Source of the DNA: a virus
Direction: 5' to 3' (one strand)
IMG/VR virus record: IMGVR_UViG_3300014720_004620
Span: 1 to 22,976 of that record
Length of the DNA: 22,976 nucleotides
Shown: one piece after another, positions 2,456 through 19,797 of the stretch
How the letters are laid out: every line of letters starts with the position of its first letter
How positions within the stretch are numbered: the stretch's first letter is position 1
Program-made: the position numbers and the translations under genes
Notes under the pieces: model-generated
Seen by the model: the letters and a program-made list of their open reading frames with translations, nothing else
What the model was told of the DNA's origin: nothing
The model's database searches: none

Positions 2456-3819
2456 TAAGCGGGAAAACATTAATTGATTTAGGATATCAACCATCAAAAT
2501 GGTTTAGTTCTGTCATAGACTATGCTAATACTAATGATCTCAATACAGAACAATTGCATAACCATATAAGTTCAATACTTCCTAAAGTTGTTGAACCATT
2601 GTATAATCCTATAGATTTCCACAAAAATATTCTAGCAGACAATGAGCATGAGCTGAAAAATATAGAGTCTGTTTATGAGGCTATGAACTCTTTGTTAACA
2701 ATACCCACAGCAGTAGATGCTGCTATAATGCCAGATGCTTGTCCTACAGGTAAAGATGAAATTCCTGTTGGCGGAATAATAGCGACTAAAAACGCTATTC
2801 ATCCTCGTATGCACAGTGCTGATATATGTTGTTCTGTTATGGCTACTGACTTAGGCTATGCTGATCCTAAGATGGTACTAGATGCCGCTTTTGAGATTAC
2901 TCATTTTGGTATAGGAGGAAGAGACAGAGATAATCAATTAATAAGATTGCCTATTGATCTTAAAGATAAAATACAAAATAATTACTATTTAAATAGTGAT
3001 AAAAGTTTAAAGTATGCTCATAGTCACCTTGGTACTCAGGGTGATGGTAATCATTTTTTATTTATTGGAATAAGTAAGAGTAATAATCATACTTACTTAG
3101 TTACTCATCATGGTAGCAGAGGTTTTGGGGCAAATCTTTATAATGAAGGAGTATACAAAGCAGAATTATTTCGTAAAGAAATTGCTCCTAATATTAGTAG
3201 TAAAAATGCTTGGATTCCTTTTGACACTAAAGAGGGTCAGGATTATTGGGAGGCTCTACAAATTGTAAGAGAATGGACTAAATTAAATCACGAGTCTCTA
3301 CATGACGCTATAAAGACAAAAGTTTCTAAATTTTTATATTCTGAAAGATTTTGGAATGAGCATAATTTCGTCTTTAAAAAAGATGATGTATTTTATCATG
3401 CCAAAGGAGCAACTCCTATGGAAGATGGTTTTGTACCAGACTCATATAAAGGATTAAGGCTTATTCCATTAAATATGAGCCAGCCTATATTAGTAGTAAA
3501 AGCATCAGACAACAATACTGGATTAGGTTTTGCTCCTCATGGTGCTGGTCGTAATTTTAGTAGATCTGAACATAAAAGATCTAAACTAATTGATAAAACA
3601 TCCAAACAATTATTTTATGAAGAAACAAAAGGGCTTGATGTCAGATTTTTTTCTGGAAAAATAGATGTAAGCGAATTGCCCAGTGCTTACAAAAATGCTG
3701 ACAAAATTAAACAACAAATTACTCACTTTAATCTAGGTACTATTGTTGACGAAATAGACCCTTATGGATGTATTATGGCTGGACATATAGAAAAGCCATG
3801 GAGAAAAAGAAAAATATAA
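2452..3819 (+). CDS. rtcB: RtcB family RNA ligase
   Basis: This is a GTP- and Mn2+-dependent RNA ligase that joins 2',3'-cyclic phosphate or 3'-phosphate ends to 5'-OH ends, as in repair of tRNAs cut by ribotoxins. The protein has 455 residues. Metal-ligand motifs are present: ADIC (Asp124, Cys126), GDGNHF (His201) and THHGSRG (His219/220). The guanylylation site HGAGR is at 363-367 with His363 as the expected nucleotide acceptor, followed by SRSE. The C-terminus keeps the IEKPWR-like end (446-451). The start is GTG at 2452, overlapping the previous stop, with AAGGA about 10 nt upstream. No archease is seen in the window. With the ligase at the window start, the phage encodes ligases for both kinds of RNA ends. 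Confidence 0.95.
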   Translation: MISGKTLIDLGYQPSKWFSSVIDYANTNDLNTEQLHNHISSILPKVVEPLYNPIDFHKNILADNEHELKNIESVYEAMNSLLTIPTAVDAAIMPDACPTGKDEIPVGGIIATKNAIHPRMHSADICCSVMATDLGYADPKMVLDAAFEITHFGIGGRDRDNQLIRLPIDLKDKIQNNYYLNSDKSLKYAHSHLGTQGDGNHFLFIGISKSNNHTYLVTHHGSRGFGANLYNEGVYKAELFRKEIAPNISSKNAWIPFDTKEGQDYWEALQIVREWTKLNHESLHDAIKTKVSKFLYSERFWNEHNFVFKKDDVFYHAKGATPMEDGFVPDSYKGLRLIPLNMSQPILVVKASDNNTGLGFAPHGAGRNFSRSEHKRSKLIDKTSKQLFYEETKGLDVRFFSGKIDVSELPSAYKNADKIKQQITHFNLGTIVDEIDPYGCIMAGHIEKPWRKRKI

Positions 3820-3826
3820 GTTTGTA

Positions 3827-4786
3827 CTAATTACATTTTTTATATGTATCTATATCGGTTTGTAAATAATTTTGATAAGTTATTTGATCTAAATGAAACC
3901 ACTTAATCAACATATTAGAATCTGTGTGTTTGATCAGTTCTCCGTATATTTTAATGTCTTCTTTAATATAGCATATTTTGTTATAAGTAATAACTAGATG
4001 AAAAAATCCGTTTGGAGCAGAACTGTTCATGATTCTAATCTCTGGTATTTCTCCTTTGTTTATGGTCTTATTGTCATACTCATTTATATATCCAAAAAGT
4101 CTTTCTAAAGAATGAGAATACGAACCATCGTTTTGATCATCAACCTTATTTTTTTCTTGTAATAAAAACGAATTGATTTTATCTAAAACATCTTTTTTGA
4201 CAAAATATTTTTGAAATAGCTGTGTTTTACTAGCGAAGATATTCCCTCCGCAGAAATTTTTACTTGGAGCTTTATCATAGTCTATACCAATAATTTTACA
4301 TAATTCTTGAATTTTTTTTGTATTCAAAAATTCTTGATCCTTTAATATTAGTTGCTCATTGCATAAAGATCCAATTTTTTCATCCGCCAATAATTTAGAA
4401 CAATTATTTAAAAATATGGTTTTTGAACCCAATAAAGAATGTAAAAGAATAGTTCTCCAGTTTATGTATTTTTTATTACTTTTGCCTAAATATGATTTTT
4501 TTGAATGTAACTTAAAAAATATAGGTTCTTTTAAAGGATTAAGTAAATTAATTTGATACAAAAAAGGTCTCACGTCCACTCCACAATTATCTTTAAAATA
4601 CTGAAAAGATACATTAGAAAAATATTTATTAGCTTCGTTAACTATTTGTGAATTATCATTTTTTGCATACAAACCTATATATAGATTTATATGTTTCTCA
4701 ATAGGTTTAAGTAAATGGAGAAATTCTGGCCATAAATCAATATGATAAATCCATAATAGTATGGCTGCTTTTTGGTCTATTTTCAT
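3827..4786 (-). CDS. RgpF / rhamnan synthesis F-like protein
   Basis: This 319-residue protein resembles the RgpF family (rhamnan synthesis protein F), which takes part in bacterial surface polysaccharide assembly. Features supporting this are VDVRPFLYQI, where RgpF proteins have a GRDxxPFL-like segment; FFKLHSKKS followed by WRTILLHSLLGS; and a late FCGGNIFASK segment matching the family's GxMFW/A region. It is the only clear reverse-strand gene, converging on rtcB with a 7-nt gap. It is extremely AT-rich (Lys, Asn and Ile abundant) compared with neighbours, suggesting separate acquisition. No Shine-Dalgarno sequence precedes the ATG. It may modify the host envelope or decorate the virion. 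The assignment rests on remembered motifs. Confidence 0.72.
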   Translation of the reverse strand: MKIDQKAAILLWIYHIDLWPEFLHLLKPIEKHINLYIGLYAKNDNSQIVNEANKYFSNVSFQYFKDNCGVDVRPFLYQINLLNPLKEPIFFKLHSKKSYLGKSNKKYINWRTILLHSLLGSKTIFLNNCSKLLADEKIGSLCNEQLILKDQEFLNTKKIQELCKIIGIDYDKAPSKNFCGGNIFASKTQLFQKYFVKKDVLDKINSFLLQEKNKVDDQNDGSYSHSLERLFGYINEYDNKTINKGEIPEIRIMNSSAPNGFFHLVITYNKICYIKEDIKIYGELIKHTDSNMLIKWFHLDQITYQNYLQTDIDTYKKCN

Positions 4787-4808
4787 AAATTCGTTGTCTA
4801 GGCTCTGT

Positions 4809-4836
4809 TTGACAAAACCATCTATATTAGTATAAT
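4809..4836 (+). promoter_or_regulatory. sigma70-like promoter, distal of a tandem pair
   Basis: TTGACA (4809-4814) and a perfect TATAAT (4831-4836) are separated by 16 nt. Transcription would start near 4843 and run towards the DUF4325 gene. A second promoter follows 46 nt downstream of this -10. Unlike the other promoters here, it has no CGAT element. Confidence 0.75.
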
Positions 4837-4881
4837 AATCGCAGACTCGCGGAAGTCATAAAAACAAGTTTAAGGTTGGCG

Positions 4882-4910
4882 TTGACATTTGACGATATAC
4901 GGGTTAGAAT
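4882..4910 (+). promoter_or_regulatory. sigma70-like promoter with CGATA element, upstream of DUF4325 gene
   Basis: TTGACA (4882-4887) and TAGAAT (4905-4910) have a 17-nt spacer that contains CGATA. Half of the inverted repeat ATATACGGG / CCCGTATAT lies in the spacer (4895-4903) and the other half beyond the predicted start (4923-4931). This is a likely operator geometry. Confidence 0.8.
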
Positions 4911-4935
4911 GAGTAGTTCTGGCCCGTATATTTTT
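4895..4935 (+). terminator. 9-bp inverted repeat plus T-run: terminator for distal promoter or operator
   Basis: ATATACGGG (4895-4903) and CCCGTATAT (4923-4931) are perfect inverted repeats 19 nt apart, followed by T residues to 4935. RNA from the promoter at 4809 would contain both arms and could form a terminator hairpin. RNA from the promoter at 4882 would start inside the loop and escape. As DNA, the repeat could instead bind a repressor. The sequence cannot tell these apart. Confidence 0.5.
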
Positions 4936-4948
4936 AGGAGTACACAGA

Positions 4949-5245
4949 ATGAAGGGACCGCTAATATATTATCCTATTGCAGAAATGTACGGCACAGATC
5001 TGTCTAGTACTAAACTGTCTTCGGAACTTAGGTCTTTGATTTTAGAAGAAATTGATCTAGGATTTAATGTGGAAATAGACCTGAAGAATGTTCGCACATT
5101 GACAAACGGATGGATTAGAAATGCTTTTGGTCTAATTATCAAAGATAAAGGATACGAATTTTTTAAACAGCACATTCAAATTATTAATATGTCTAATGAT
5201 ATCCGACAGTCTATTTTAGAGGGTATAGATCAGGTTATATCATGA
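4949..5245 (+). CDS. STAS-like protein (DUF4325 type)
   Basis: This 98-residue protein resembles the STAS-like DUF4325 family. The central strand VEIDLKNVRTLTNGWIRNAF followed by a hydrophobic helix and a late IINMSNDIR strand match the family's 'vtiDf.gv..lt.sfi.eaFG' pattern. Members often sit beside kinases or in mobile and defence contexts, and their role is unclear. It is the first gene behind two tandem promoters, with AGGAG 8 nt before the ATG. Its stop overlaps the next start (ATGA). Confidence 0.65.
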   Translation: MKGPLIYYPIAEMYGTDLSSTKLSSELRSLILEEIDLGFNVEIDLKNVRTLTNGWIRNAFGLIIKDKGYEFFKQHIQIINMSNDIRQSILEGIDQVIS

Positions 5246-5451
5246 TTGCAAGATTGCTATACGCTGTTATAGGAGCCACAGGATTAAGCATAGTACTTAG
5301 TTTGATACTTTTTAGTATATTCTATTTTATAGTCCATACTTTAAAATATAACTATGGTAATGAAAACTACTGGGTGTTTAGTTATACTTTTGTATTTAGT
5401 ATTTTTGTATGGATAATTAGTTTTGGTATTTTTTGTAGTTTTATTGAATAA
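5242..5451 (+). CDS. small two-helix membrane protein
   Basis: This 69-residue protein has two hydrophobic segments, about residues 5-33 and 43-66, joined by a short polar loop (KYNYGNENY). It overlaps the DUF4325 gene by ATGA, so the two are co-translated. The function is unknown. An inner-membrane protein with its termini on the same side is the likely topology. Confidence 0.75.
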   Translation: MIARLLYAVIGATGLSIVLSLILFSIFYFIVHTLKYNYGNENYWVFSYTFVFSIFVWIISFGIFCSFIE

Positions 5452-5475
5452 TCTATCTTAAATGAAAGACAATAT

Positions 5476-5667
5476 ATGAGTTTATGGGAAAGCATAAGTA
5501 AAATTTTTAATTTATTTTCGCGTCAAAAATCTTATGAAGAATTGACAGTAGAACTAGATGACAAAATGCAAGATCTTTATACTAGGATGGGTTGGCAACC
5601 ACAAAAAATTAACGATAGATTAGAAAAAACTATAAACTGGACTCTAAAAAACGATAGATGGCTATAA
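5476..5667 (+). CDS. hypothetical protein
   Basis: This 63-residue protein is soluble and charged, with a central amphipathic helix and several Trp residues (MGWQPQ, NWTLKNDRWL). It ends 1 nt before the next start. No family is recognised and there is no clear Shine-Dalgarno sequence. Its position inside the gene run is the main support. Confidence 0.65.
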   Translation: MSLWESISKIFNLFSRQKSYEELTVELDDKMQDLYTRMGWQPQKINDRLEKTINWTLKNDRWL

Positions 5668-5668
5668 T

Positions 5669-6280
5669 ATGAATAAAGGATTTACTGTAATAGGTGACGT
5701 TCATGGTAAGTATGAAAGATACCATAAAATTGTAAGGCAACAGGATTTTTATCCGTACACGTTACAGTTGGGAGATTTTGGTTTTAAATATGAAACACTA
5801 AAGAATGTGGATTCAACAAAACATCTTATTTTACCGGGTAATCATGATAATTATTATATGTGTTATAGATACCCTCATTTTTTAGGAGATTTCGGTTTTA
5901 CTTCTTTGAATGGCACAGAGTTTTTCTATTATCGTGGAGCATATAGTATAGACAGACAATATCGTACAATAGGTATAGATTGGTGGCAAGAGGAACAAGT
6001 AACTATTGAAGACTTTATGAAAGCAAGAGAGTTGTATAGGTCTACCAAACCAGATATTGTTATAACCCATGATTGTCCAGAAAACATAGCCCTAATCATG
6101 CTTAACAATCAAGGTAGACTATATCAAAATACAACGGGCTGGGCATTACAAGAACTTCTAAATATACATGAACCTAAATTATGGATATTTGGACACTGGC
6201 ATCAGTCAAGGACTATAGAATACGGCAAAACCCAGTTTATATGCCTTGACGAACTGGAAGTTTATGATATAAAGGGTTGA
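5669..6280 (+). CDS. calcineurin-like metallophosphoesterase
   Basis: This 203-residue phosphoesterase has the full set of dimetal motifs: GDVHG (9-13), GDFG (35-38), GNHDN (57-61), ITHDCP in the middle, and GHWHQ near the C-terminus. Members cleave phosphomonoesters or diesters of nucleotides, RNA or proteins; the substrate here cannot be read. Phage homologues are common, often in the same neighbourhood as RNA ligases. No membrane segment is present. It starts 1 nt after the preceding stop. Confidence 0.9.
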   Translation: MNKGFTVIGDVHGKYERYHKIVRQQDFYPYTLQLGDFGFKYETLKNVDSTKHLILPGNHDNYYMCYRYPHFLGDFGFTSLNGTEFFYYRGAYSIDRQYRTIGIDWWQEEQVTIEDFMKARELYRSTKPDIVITHDCPENIALIMLNNQGRLYQNTTGWALQELLNIHEPKLWIFGHWHQSRTIEYGKTQFICLDELEVYDIKG

Positions 6281-6332
6281 GCCTAGCGTTGGATTGTTAG
6301 CAATATTCTCATTAAGGAATCAAAAAGTAATT

Positions 6333-6542
6333 ATGAACAATAAAGCTAAAAAAATAGTGAAAGATTTCTATCTGTCTGTTATTTGGTATTTAAAGAAAGA
6401 ATACAAGCCTAAATATTATAGATATTGTGAGTCTCATATGAATACAATGTATGAAAAAGTTTCACCTCTTTATTGGGGAGGATCTAATATTTCTAATACA
6501 GCAGCAGAGTTAGTAGAGTACATCAAGAAAGCATCTGTATGA
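6333..6542 (+). CDS. hypothetical protein
   Basis: This 69-residue protein is basic and aromatic-rich (Tyr, Trp). I chose the ATG at 6333, with AAGGA at 6314-6318, over an upstream in-frame TTG at 6294 that has no ribosome binding site. The spacing of 14 nt is long. The stop overlaps the next ATG (ATGA). No family is recognised. Confidence 0.65.
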   Translation: MNNKAKKIVKDFYLSVIWYLKKEYKPKYYRYCESHMNTMYEKVSPLYWGGSNISNTAAELVEYIKKASV

Positions 6543-6751
6543 TTACATATCAAATTAAAATGTTCAAAGGGTTCCACAATGAACTTAATGAGGAAACTAT
6601 AAACAAATGGCTCCAAGATAATTCTGCTACAATAGATAATATTGTCAATATTTCTCATAGTTCTTATGTTGGGGGAGGGTGTATGACAGTAACATACATT
6701 AAGAAAAACCCTTTAGATAAAAACCATGATAATCAGATCCACTATAGATAG
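6539..6751 (+). CDS. hypothetical protein, possibly Cse60-like
   Basis: This 70-residue protein has the layout of the small Cse60-type family found in bacilli and phages: an N-terminal strand (YQIKMFKG), a helix NEETINKWLQDN, and a strand ending CMTVTYIKK. The resemblance is general rather than decisive. It overlaps both neighbours (ATGA upstream, 26 nt downstream). Confidence 0.6.
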   Translation: MITYQIKMFKGFHNELNEETINKWLQDNSATIDNIVNISHSSYVGGGCMTVTYIKKNPLDKNHDNQIHYR

Positions 6752-6992
6752 TGATTGTGAAGGTAGATTATACTATATAACTAAACATATGGGTAAGGAG
6801 ACTGTTGTACATCTACCTAAGTATAAATCTAGATTATCAGAATATGATGGAGAGCAGTTGATTAAAGAATTACGAAAAGACCCCAATACAAAAACCATAT
6901 ACCTATACAAAATCAAATATAATGACGGTATGATATCTTTGATAGCCAATCCAGATAAACCCATAGGCTCTTTTCATTGTGAGGAAAAATGA
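6726..6992 (+). CDS. hypothetical protein
   Basis: This 88-residue protein is basic, with a predicted alternation of beta strands and one helix (GEQLIKELRKDPNTKTIYLYKI). Its start lies inside the preceding gene (26-nt overlap) and its stop overlaps the next start. No family is recognised. No Shine-Dalgarno sequence is visible, so translation is probably coupled. Confidence 0.62.
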   Translation: MIIRSTIDSDCEGRLYYITKHMGKETVVHLPKYKSRLSEYDGEQLIKELRKDPNTKTIYLYKIKYNDGMISLIANPDKPIGSFHCEEK

Positions 6993-7219
6993 CTGAAAGT
7001 TATAGAGATTTTTTGACTACTATCAATGATACATTTTGGAATCATAAACCTATTCTAAGATATGGCCAAACAATAATGAATGTTTTATATGATGTATGGC
7101 CCGAAAAACACAAAGAAATTGTAGGATCAGTATACGATTGTTTTTATGATGATACCAAAGTAGAATCACTGTTAAATTTATTAGAAACCAATTGGAAAAA
7201 GGAAGATAGTAATGTATAA
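6989..7219 (+). CDS. hypothetical protein
   Basis: This 76-residue soluble protein is helical and acidic (SYRDFLTTIND, then VYDCFYDDTK). GAGGA lies 6 nt before the ATG. It overlaps the preceding gene (ATGA) and the secreted repeat protein downstream by 8 nt. No family is recognised. Confidence 0.68.
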   Translation: MTESYRDFLTTINDTFWNHKPILRYGQTIMNVLYDVWPEKHKEIVGSVYDCFYDDTKVESLLNLLETNWKKEDSNV

Positions 7220-17401: not shown

Positions 17402-17430
17402 TTGACACTCACAAGCCGATACTATACAAT
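17402..17430 (+). promoter_or_regulatory. sigma70-like promoter for the tRNA/tmRNA unit
   Basis: TTGACA (17402-17407) and TACAAT (17425-17430) have a 17-nt spacer containing GCCGATA. The predicted start near 17437 is only about 5 nt before the tRNA. The tRNA, two small genes and the tmRNA could be one transcript. Confidence 0.8.
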
Positions 17431-17742: not shown

Positions 17743-17942
17743 CAAATAGAGTTCGTAGATTATCTGTGTTTGTGCTGCTTTTTGGTGCATTTATTTTTTG
17801 CACCGCGTACTGCGTTGTTCTTTATCAAAAGCATAATAACTTCACATATCAGACCACAGACCAAGAACTGAATCAGATTCAAAATGAGATTAAAAGACTA
17901 GAAAAACAATCACAAAAGGGGTATGAAAACAAGGGCGAGTAA
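17739..17942 (+). CDS. small single-pass membrane protein
   Basis: This 67-residue protein has a basic start (MTNRVRRLS), a hydrophobic helix (about 9-29, with two Cys), and a charged coiled-coil tail (DQELNQIQNEIKRLEKQSQK). The topology resembles i-spanin or Rz-like proteins (N-in, single helix, helical tail outside), but there is no Rz1-like partner. Its last 10 nt overlap the 5' acceptor strand of the tmRNA. Confidence 0.62.
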   Translation: MTNRVRRLSVFVLLFGAFIFCTAYCVVLYQKHNNFTYQTTDQELNQIQNEIKRLEKQSQKGYENKGE

Positions 17943-18288
17943 AGGTTTCGACTACATAAAGAGATTTGTATTAGCAAGTAGTGGTTGATCGACCGGCCAC
18001 TTTAAAAGTCGATTAAAACGCTTTAACTGGCGAAACTCAGTTAGCACTTGCTGCCTGACAAAAAAGGGCAGTAACGGATTGCGATTGCGAATGAGGGTAG
18101 CGATCAAAAATCCGTCGTTAAATCCCTCTGCACTTACAATATCCAACGGGTTGTAGGTTAAGAGAAGTTGGTAAGACAGAACGAGTGTTGTTTGTTCTTT
18201 AATTCTGTTTAACTTATGAACAAAATAAACTTGTAGAAAATGCATTTTGAACTATGATAGGACAGGGGTTCGACTCCCCTCTCGTCCA
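17933..18288 (+). ncRNA. ssrA: tmRNA (transfer-messenger RNA), tag ending ALAA
   Basis: tmRNA rescues stalled ribosomes and tags the nascent protein for proteolysis. The acceptor is GGGCGAG (17933-17939) with CTCGTCC (18281-18287). It includes the G3-U70 pair that alanyl-tRNA synthetase recognises, and discriminator A18288; CCA is not encoded. The T-arm is AGGGG, TTCGACT, CCCCT, and GGTTTCGAC (17944-17952) is the conserved D-like segment. Pseudoknot 1 pairs AGTGG with CCACT and TTGATCGAC with GTCGATTAA. The tag frame 18020-18058 reads ALTGETQLALAA then TGA, with the stop in the loop of CTGCC/GGCAG as in typical tmRNAs. Further pairings ACGGATT/AATCCGT with GAGGG/CCCTC, CCAAC/GTTGG, and TTTGTTC/GAACAAA support three more pseudoknots. 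The resume codon (GCT 18020, or AAC 18017) is inferred. Confidence 0.93.
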
Positions 18289-18304
18289 CTTAATAGATTA
18301 TAAT

Positions 18305-18870
18305 ATGGAACACATATATCCAAATATCGAAGGATGGTTTGATTTCCACACATTCTATAATTCTGTCCTTGATAGATTACCTCAAGATTATATCTTTGTG
18401 GAAGTTGGGGTTTGGAAAGGTAAAAGTTTATCTTATTTTGTCATAGAAAGTATCAATAAAAGTAAAAATGGTAAAATTTATGCTGTAGACCATTGGTTAG
18501 GTAGCGAAGAGCATCAAAAAGATTCTTGGGCTTATGATCCACTAACTCAAATAGAGGATGGATTATATAATGAGTATTGTAAGAATATTGTCCCTATTAG
18601 GATTATATATTTGATATCAAAAACTCGTCGGAAGTGGCGAGTAATACTTTTGAAAATCAGAGCATCGATGCTGTTTTTATTGATGCTAGTCATGATTATG
18701 ATAATGTGTACCGTGATATTTCTTCTTGGTATCCAAAGGTAAAGTTTGGGGGAATTATTTCTGGTCATGATTATGACTGGCCAGGAGTAAATAGTGCTGT
18801 TAATAATTTTGCTAAGGCTCACAATATGGGTATTGTTAGTTATGACAATGTTTGGGAATTACTCTATTAA
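18305..18870 (+). CDS. class I SAM-dependent methyltransferase, interrupted by a -1 frameshift
   Basis: The first part (ATG 18305) contains FVEVGVWKGKSLSYF, the SAM-binding motif I of Methyltransf_24-like proteins, then IYAVDHWLGS. After about residue 106 this frame turns into hydrophobic noise ending at 18742. The second part, in the -1 frame, runs to 18870 with SIDAVFIDASHDYDNVYRDI and GGIISGHDYDWPGV, the expected continuation. Joining at the A-run 18619-18623 gives ISKNSSEVASNTF and a product of about 188 residues. The substrate is unknown; such enzymes modify sugars or small molecules in many phage and polysaccharide loci. The break may be a sequencing error, a true mutation, or slippage. 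Confidence 0.78.
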
Positions 18871-18881
18871 GATATTTTAAT

Positions 18882-19241
18882 ATGAGAAAAATTTGTACCT
18901 ATTGTGGAAAACGAAAAAATAAAAAAAGTTTTCCAAAACATAGTATGTACAAAGATAATCTGGACAGCAGATGTAGGAGTTGTGTTAAAAAACACTCTAA
19001 AGTAAGAAGTAAATTACATAAAAAAGCACCAGAAAAACCCGACATTTGTGAATGTTGCGGTTTATTTCCTATTAAATGGTGTTTAGACCATGATCATTCT
19101 GATGATAGTTTTAGAGGTTGGATATGTGATAAATGTAATACTGGTATAGGAAAACTTGGAGATGATTTAGATGGTGTAATTAAAGCTGTTAATTATTTAA
19201 TAATGGCTAAATCTAGGAAACACCATGCTAAATCAAATTAG
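18882..19241 (+). CDS. HNH / recombination endonuclease VII-like nuclease
   Basis: This 119-residue protein has a zinc site (CTYC at 5-8, CRSC at 31-34) with FPKHSMYKDNLDSRC between the pairs. A second module has CECCG, then LDHDH (68-72) as the HNH core, and ICDKCNTGIGKLGDD (81-95) completing it. This pattern matches endonuclease VII-like HNH proteins, which are common in phages, often as free-standing homing nucleases or Holliday-junction resolvases. I chose ATG 18882 because the upstream in-frame start at 18852 lies in the methyltransferase. Its position directly after a broken gene is compatible with a mobile nuclease. Confidence 0.85.
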   Translation: MRKICTYCGKRKNKKSFPKHSMYKDNLDSRCRSCVKKHSKVRSKLHKKAPEKPDICECCGLFPIKWCLDHDHSDDSFRGWICDKCNTGIGKLGDDLDGVIKAVNYLIMAKSRKHHAKSN

Positions 19242-19797
19242 AGATACTTTGGCTTCTGAAGAAGCGGAATACTTCTCTATAGCCTTTTTTGTTCATGTGA
19301 TAGTTTTGCTTCTACTCTCTTTTATAGTAGACGCATCAATACCTTCTAAGAGTAGAATTATTATACATTCTTCTCCGATAGAGGAAGAACATGCCGGTAT
19401 TTTTACAACATTACAAAATCAAAAACTTCCAGAGCTAGATAAAGCTATGAGCGCCTTGGTAGAAGATTTAAATGATCGTGGATTACTACAAGATACCGCT
19501 ATTATTTGGATGGGAGAATTTGGTAGAACCCCTAATATAAACGGTAATACTGGTCGTGATCATTGGGCTAGAAGTTGGAGTGTTGTGGTTGGAGGGGCAG
19601 GATTTAAGAAGGGTATTATTGTTGGCGAGACAAGTGAAGATGGTAAAGAAGTTATAACAGAGCCATATTCGTCTCAAGATTTAATGGCCAGTGTACTTAA
19701 ATCATTAAATATTTCTTTAGAAACAACTTTTACATCCAAAAATGGTAGACCCATGAAAATAGCCAATAGTGGTAAAGTAATTAAAGAATTATTTTAA
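19225..19797 (+). CDS. chimeric protein: membrane N-terminus plus DUF1501 C-terminal part
   Basis: Residues 1-55 hold one transmembrane helix (about 18-36, FSIAFFVHVIVLLLLSFIV) and a polar linker. From about residue 58 to the end the protein matches the C-terminal third of DUF1501 proteins: LPELDKAMSALVEDLNDRG, WMGEFGRTP (95-103), GRDHW (110-114), VVGGAGFKKG, and the family's closing GRPxxIxxxGxxIxELF. The first 300 or so residues of a normal DUF1501 protein are absent. DUF1501 is typical of Planctomycetes, where it has sulfatase-like features. This is therefore probably a fragment captured from a host gene and fused to a different N-terminus. The membrane position would place the DUF1501 part outside the cytoplasm. 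It overlaps the HNH gene by 17 nt. Confidence 0.82.
   Translation: MLNQIRDTLASEEAEYFSIAFFVHVIVLLLLSFIVDASIPSKSRIIIHSSPIEEEHAGIFTTLQNQKLPELDKAMSALVEDLNDRGLLQDTAIIWMGEFGRTPNINGNTGRDHWARSWSVVVGGAGFKKGIIVGETSEDGKEVITEPYSSQDLMASVLKSLNISLETTFTSKNGRPMKIANSGKVIKELF

Follow-up and report, generated by a model that had tools for sequence, protein, structure and literature searches.

A sigma-70-like promoter nested in an RNA hairpin before a DUF4325 gene of a viral genome, and hairpins of the same layout at tRNA-Ile promoters of related phages

The proximal of two sigma-70-like promoters (P1 and P2) that precede a DUF4325 gene in the virus record analysed here (22,976 bases in all, hereafter the window) shares its DNA with a predicted RNA hairpin at 4894-4932, and hairpins that likewise enclose a -10 element are found before tRNA-Ile(TAT) genes of related phages, where the paired positions covary. 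The interpretation that we favour, at roughly even chances, is that the hairpin is a 3'-end-forming, terminator-like element fused to P2, at which RNA reading through from upstream would end near 4935, and from which RNA initiated at P2 would escape. The transcription starts, the termination and insulation as the purpose of the arrangement are all inferred from the DNA sequence.

The DUF4325 locus and its promoters

The features of the locus, together with one promoter used for comparison, are as follows.

3827-4786, minus strand: RgpF-like gene (Pfam PF05045, 3.1e-12)
4809-4836, plus strand: P1, distal sigma-70-like promoter (TTGACA 4809-4814, spacer 16, TATAAT 4831-4836; 12/12 in the pattern scan)
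4882-4910, plus strand: P2, proximal promoter (TTGACA 4882-4887, spacer 17, TAGAAT 4905-4910; 11/12 in the pattern scan)
4894-4932, plus strand: RNA hairpin (17 bp, 5-nt loop GAGUA, -22.8 kcal/mol), nested around the -10 element of P2
4895-4903 and 4923-4931: repeat arms ATATACGGG and CCCGTATAT, with a T-run at 4931-4935
4927-4935, plus strand: T-rich tract TATATTTTT, 3' of the G+C part of the stem, a possible termination zone
4937-4941, plus strand: Shine-Dalgarno sequence AGGAG of the DUF4325 gene, read from the sequence, outside the hairpin
4949-5245, plus strand: DUF4325 (STAS-like) gene (Pfam PF14213, 3.2e-09), ATG at 4949, the first gene 3' of the hairpin
17402-17430, plus strand: CGATA-type promoter of the window's own tRNA-Ile(TAT) gene, with no hairpin (comparison site)

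The window also encodes RNA ligase, rtcB, thyX, uvdE and DNA ligase, as well as tRNA-Ile(TAT) and a tmRNA (17933-18289, tag GETQLALAA; contig L037 has a tmRNA too). Two overlapping frames (18254-18742 and 18634-18870) match the first (1-41) and last (63-105) parts of Methyltransf_24, which could mean that the frame of a single gene is broken or that the sequence contains an error. In the product of 19225-19797 an unrelated N-terminus is joined to the C-terminal third of DUF1501 (profile positions 257-390); DUF1501 is typical of Planctomycetes, and possibly a hint at the host of this phage. The DUF4325 product itself has a sole match in PHROGs, to a family without assigned function (0.00048).

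All identified genes of the window lie on the plus strand, with the exception of the RgpF-like gene, which is separated from the DUF4325 gene by an intergenic region of 162 bases containing P1, P2 and the repeat. This gene is likely to be an insertion into an operon, because its G+C content is low (0.252 vs 0.328 for the window) and because in the closest relative, L008, whose RtcB is 90% identical to that of the window, rtcB is followed directly by a membrane protein gene and a DUF4325 gene, with RgpF absent. A search for the RgpF gene in viral contigs found none, and a blastn search of 3800-7000 against annotated phages gave no match. P1 and P2 would restart an operon that the inserted gene would otherwise cut off, if the events took place in this order.

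Promoter sites scoring at least 11/12 number 9 on the plus strand and 0 on the minus strand of the whole window, vs a mean of 0.40 and a maximum of 1 in shuffled sequences (n = 20), and 12/12 sites number 2 vs 0 in 20 shuffles. The tandem promoters proposed in the initial annotation are borne out in this respect, both P1 and P2 being, as judged by sequence, real and beyond chance. Transcription usually starts 6-7 nt past the -10 element, which would place the starts near 4843 (P1) and near 4917 (P2). An imperfect palindrome, GACTCGCGGAAGTC, lies at 4844-4857, exactly at the presumed start of P1.

The spacer of P2 contains CGATA 5 nt past the -35 element, and the spacer of P1 is without it. CGAT occurs in 55 of 122 candidate promoter spacers vs 6.4 in shuffled spacers (it is missing from the other 67), and CGATA is strongly directional (67 occurrences vs 2 of its complement), with an offset from the -35 element of 3-5 nt in 54 of 72 cases and sometimes of 9-11 nt. 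The element, in the form (C)CGATA, was observed in spacers at window positions 4882, 12667, 14564, 15926, 17402 and 21401 and also in L022-L041; its strict form was found in at least 120 viral-contig stretches vs 26 stretches of the genome collection. P2 thus appears, by its CGATA, to belong to a promoter class of this phage group. The literature on CCGATA in connection with promoters and phages, as far as it was covered (few subscription journals), does not describe the layout. This group-wide spacer element is a second distinctive trait of these promoters.

The hairpin at P2 and hairpins at tRNA promoters

In sense RNA, residues 4894-4910 pair with 4916-4932. The initial annotation had described a nested repeat with arms of 9 bp; the repeat is indeed present around P2, but that size falls short of the 17-bp RNA hairpin. 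A 43-nt fold scan of all 22,976 bases returned this hairpin as the most stable (-23.4 kcal/mol; next best -18.0). None of 200 shuffles of 4843-4948 folds as stably (z -3.95), and shuffling the 162 nt between the genes 300 times never yielded a 43-nt hairpin as good (best -19.4). The antisense strand folds at only -13.8 kcal/mol, 9.6 kcal/mol weaker than the sense strand. As had been claimed earlier for RNA from the distal promoter, both arms can be held only by RNA that starts upstream of P2, and P2 RNA, from its presumed start near 4917, lacks the 5' arm 4894-4910.

Nested hairpins are no general feature of these promoters, since the mean z of the nested fold over all 122 candidates is -0.05, with two outliers, the window site at 4882 (z -6.9) and L022:3064 before a tRNA-Ile gene (z -7.3). 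Among 670 distinct promoters a strong nested fold was found in 3, vs 74 of 60,000 random positions, i.e. 3 against 0.48 expected, an excess that is weak when crowding between genes is allowed for. With such numbers, the case rests on covariation at the tRNA-Ile promoters and on the strength of the window hairpin. Helices in L124 and L237 were counted as chance, since both lack a good promoter and the layout does not match. A separate repeat family of the related phages, made up of scattered palindromes, TCGCTCTAAGTCCTTG...CAAGGACTTAGGGCGA followed by G+C-rich DNA, was seen in L206, L127, L134, L163, L241, L022:5168 and others.

A scan for tRNA-Ile starts gave 102 stretches, and 65 distinct upstream regions, that of the window included, were extracted from the loci analysed; identical upstream stretches were merged (L224 is not kept apart from L136, and L018 and L022 are one contig). 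Twenty of the 65 fold at -27 kcal/mol or below, and in 17 the hairpin encloses the -10 element (L323, L347, L136, L289, L300, L308, L301, L286, L271, L302, L185, L287, L304, L313, L333, L233 and L022/L018). These 17 were picked by eye, and L292, L275 and L303 were excluded for having a strong fold with no promoter in the loop. Among the 48 remaining regions 39, that of the window among them, have CGAT[AG] near the promoter; the tRNA-Ile(TAT) promoter is either of the CGATA type or within a covarying hairpin, and the two types seem to have been interchanged between phages.

Fifteen of the 17 regions were aligned in register (L286 and L308, in which the apex differs, were dropped). RNAalifold reported 19 pairs, 12 of them with changes on both sides. 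An independent count over the 15 rows, set against shuffles, gave 96.8% vs 84.4% of cells paired, 42 vs 14.7 cells with both sides changed, and covariation of 0.594 vs 0.341 (0 of 500 shuffles in each case); the signal collapses once the partner is displaced by 1-3 columns. The 17 pairs in 15 rows comprise 194 Watson-Crick, 58 G.U, 0 A.C and 3 other combinations, and sense RNA folds more stably than antisense in 15/15. The rows are related and were selected for a strong sense fold, and the counts are not independent events; still, the contrast between the strands together with the double changes would be hard to explain without RNA structure. The sequence of the stem is not conserved across the alignment. 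In 17/17 cases an upstream frame (72-86 codons) terminates 53-58 nt ahead of the tRNA, and the helix, which has no U-tract, stops a few nt short of the tRNA 5' end. Lacking a U-tract, these hairpins are therefore not ordinary intrinsic terminators. A further nested hairpin promoter was found in L128, ahead of tRNA-Arg.

The window hairpin has the same layout as the tRNA-Ile set, its -10 element being enclosed by a helix of at least 14 bp (the helices of the window, the tRNA-Ile set and L128 measure 14-21 bp), and is a single instance without homologues. Unlike the set, it has a T-run and is followed by a DUF4325 gene, and no ORF ends immediately before it. Its apex lies at -10+8 vs +3 in most of the tRNA-Ile hairpins, and because of this difference it may be of separate origin. 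The hairpin loci come from phages of the same kind, as indicated by at least one CGAT[AG]-type promoter in each of the 19 hairpin loci counted and by DUF4325 relatives on two hairpin contigs (L018/L365 and L301/L382).

Searches for DUF4325 relatives returned 10 and, with an alignment, 30, those on the same contigs included. The region of P1, P2 and the hairpin was found at none of these 30 loci. The DUF4325 gene and the gene upstream of it share 4 nt in 24 of them, and a loose promoter pattern occurs at 2, both without a strong fold. Searches for the exact arms at the same spacing gave no match in viral contigs, and TTGACA plus the left arm matched only twice, in coding DNA of unrelated phages.

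Possible functions of the hairpin

According to the interpretation that we favour, RNA from upstream, initiated at P1 or reading through from the rtcB operon, antisense to the inserted RgpF gene, would contain both arms, fold the hairpin and mostly end near 4935, so that a P1 transcript would measure about 93 nt. RNA from P2 would begin within the repeat's 3' half, could not fold the hairpin and would express the DUF4325 operon under the usual CGATA-type promoter of the phage. With RNA from upstream stopped and P2 RNA free, the DUF4325 unit would therefore be insulated in very little DNA.

The stem is G+C-rich and stable, as in an intrinsic terminator, with the core CGGG/CCCG followed by the U-tract UAUAUUUUU and then AGG; its G+C part ends 9 nt ahead of the last T of UAUAUUUUU. 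The tract is short and interrupted (5 T plus TATA). With a terminator score formula from the literature, applied to the window and 20 relative stretches, the hairpin scores -5.3, the best in the window and rank 19 of 128; scores above -10 were obtained by 26 real vs 10 control hairpins. A simple terminator scan does not list the hairpin, the likely reason being that the stem extends into the T-run. Termination near 4935 is therefore plausible yet borderline, since controls too exceed -10 beside the score of -5.3.

Several observations favour a terminator-like element fused to P2: the hairpin is both the most stable fold and the best-scoring terminator in the window; its stability is a property of the sense strand (-23.4 vs -13.8); relatives keep hairpins around the -10 element with two-sided changes in 12 of 19 pairs; the frame end before the tRNAs fits the 3' end of an upstream RNA that shares DNA with the next promoter; terminator-like hairpins are paired with promoters in L026 (1729) and L024 (2035), where the promoter follows 20 nt further on; and without P1 and P2 the DUF4325 operon would be severed by the antisense gene. 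It is weakened by the short U-tract and a score in the range shared with controls, by the tRNA-Ile hairpins, which lack a U-tract and mostly differ in apex position, and by the window hairpin being a single instance.

The helix could instead serve RNA processing or end protection, being cut by RNase III or shielding the upstream RNA at its 3' end once a different cut has been made (in the relatives, by RNase P at the tRNA). Helices of 14-21 bp in the window, the tRNA-Ile set and L128 speak for this idea, as do the tRNA sites, where a helix without a U-tract ends just short of the tRNA; we nonetheless regard it as unlikely, given that the window hairpin has a T-run and no tRNA downstream. The two-state switch suggested in the initial annotation would have P1 and P2 in different time classes, with early P1 RNA stopped unless termination is relieved, and possibly acting as a small RNA, until P2 opens the operon later. 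The absence of any gene from P1 to the hairpin would suit it, as would the timing of T4 genes by promoter-in-hairpin layouts (PMC2988022, PMC3014915). Both promoters are sigma-70-like and CGATA is present in P2 only, by which two regulators could tell them apart, but with CGAT missing from 67 of 122 candidates its absence is no class mark. Moreover, no antiterminator fold comes near in energy (-6.3 for the fold without the terminator vs -30.2), and the leader has matches elsewhere only at P2-type promoter stretches, which makes the switch distinctly unlikely. What stands of the original idea of a switch through a terminator is that the hairpin is RNA-like, that only upstream RNA holds both arms and that hairpins of the same layout covary.

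Its other half, that the repeat might be an operator, is not supported, and we consider a dimeric repressor bound to a palindrome over the -10 element and start of P2 most improbable. The DNA symmetry of 13/15 around the -10 element would suit such a protein, but the 17 pairs include four mismatches at the DNA level, each of them a G.T of the sense strand and hence G.U in sense RNA. A protein operator fits less well than an RNA structure, since repressor binding would not call for such a bias, although the bias might also come from G.T pairs on a single DNA strand. In addition, the 9-mer has no copies above chance elsewhere in the window (5 matches with at most 1 mismatch vs 3.39 expected, none of them paired at another promoter), the spaced arms recur in no viral contig and the comparable hairpins lack sequence conservation. 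Translational control of the T4 type, in which the hairpin of the long RNA, absent from P2 RNA, would hinder ribosomes at the DUF4325 start, is very unlikely. It has in its favour a layout like that of T4 e, soc and I-TevI and the seg43 hairpin upstream of a free ribosome site in phage 25 (PMC2988022). However, the Shine-Dalgarno sequence lies outside the helix, and in folded models its unpaired fraction is 0.40 in P1 RNA vs 0.35 in P2 RNA (AUG: 0.64 vs 0.62); since it is about equally free in both, hiding of the ribosome site is not supported. A model of a longer read-through RNA from 4750, with the AUG unpaired at 0.05 and the Shine-Dalgarno sequence at 0.32, would speak mildly against that verdict.

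We speculate, more tentatively than for the terminator-like element itself, that this phage group has a class of promoters in hairpins, in which read-through RNA would fold a helix of 14-21 bp by which the upstream RNA is ended, cut or sealed, whereas RNA begun at the promoter starts inside the helix and escapes. Such a class, which remains a somewhat doubtful proposal, would be maintained through compensatory changes at the tRNA promoters and would have an independent origin at the DUF4325 operon, where the addition of a distal promoter would yield a short RNA and possibly a timing switch.

Comparison with known systems

The literature on DUF4325, terminator-promoter overlap, terminators and loops in phages, and planctomycete phages does not describe the layout as far as it was covered, few subscription journals being included. 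A late promoter within an RNA hairpin is known from T4 e, soc, 49, I-TevI and segB and from Aeh1 mobE (PMC2988022, PMC3014915). As in those genes, the proximal promoter of the window lies in the 5' part of the hairpin, so that only upstream RNA forms it. However, the T4 and Aeh1 hairpins hide the ribosome site, which in the window lies outside and is about equally accessible, and their promoters are T4 late ones, whereas those of the window are sigma-70-like. In seg43 of Aeromonas phage 25, a very stable hairpin lies just upstream of a free ribosome site, its role being left open in the passage on it (PMC2988022); the window shares this arrangement but has in addition a T-run and a nested sigma-70 promoter, neither of which that passage mentions for seg43.

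With intrinsic (Rho-independent) terminators the window hairpin shares a G+C stem followed by a U-rich tract; unlike these, and unlike the terminator-promoter pairs of compact phages, it overlaps its promoter and has a short, interrupted U-tract. In the L026 and L024 pairs the two elements are 20 nt apart, and in the window they overlap. Also comparable are the tRNA-Ile(TAT) hairpins of the same phage group, with the -10 element in a long helix and G.U wobbles in the sense strand, although there the apex is at the -10 element itself (5 nt further on in the window), there is no T-run, an ORF ends upstream and a tRNA follows downstream. If the favoured interpretation is true, it would represent a compact insulation of a transcription unit in tight genomes, where the terminator of one RNA is the next promoter, and the covarying hairpins before tRNA-Ile offer a testable comparative basis for this idea. 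Altogether, a promoter within a hairpin is of a known kind, and the window presents a variant of it, with an unusual comparative footing.
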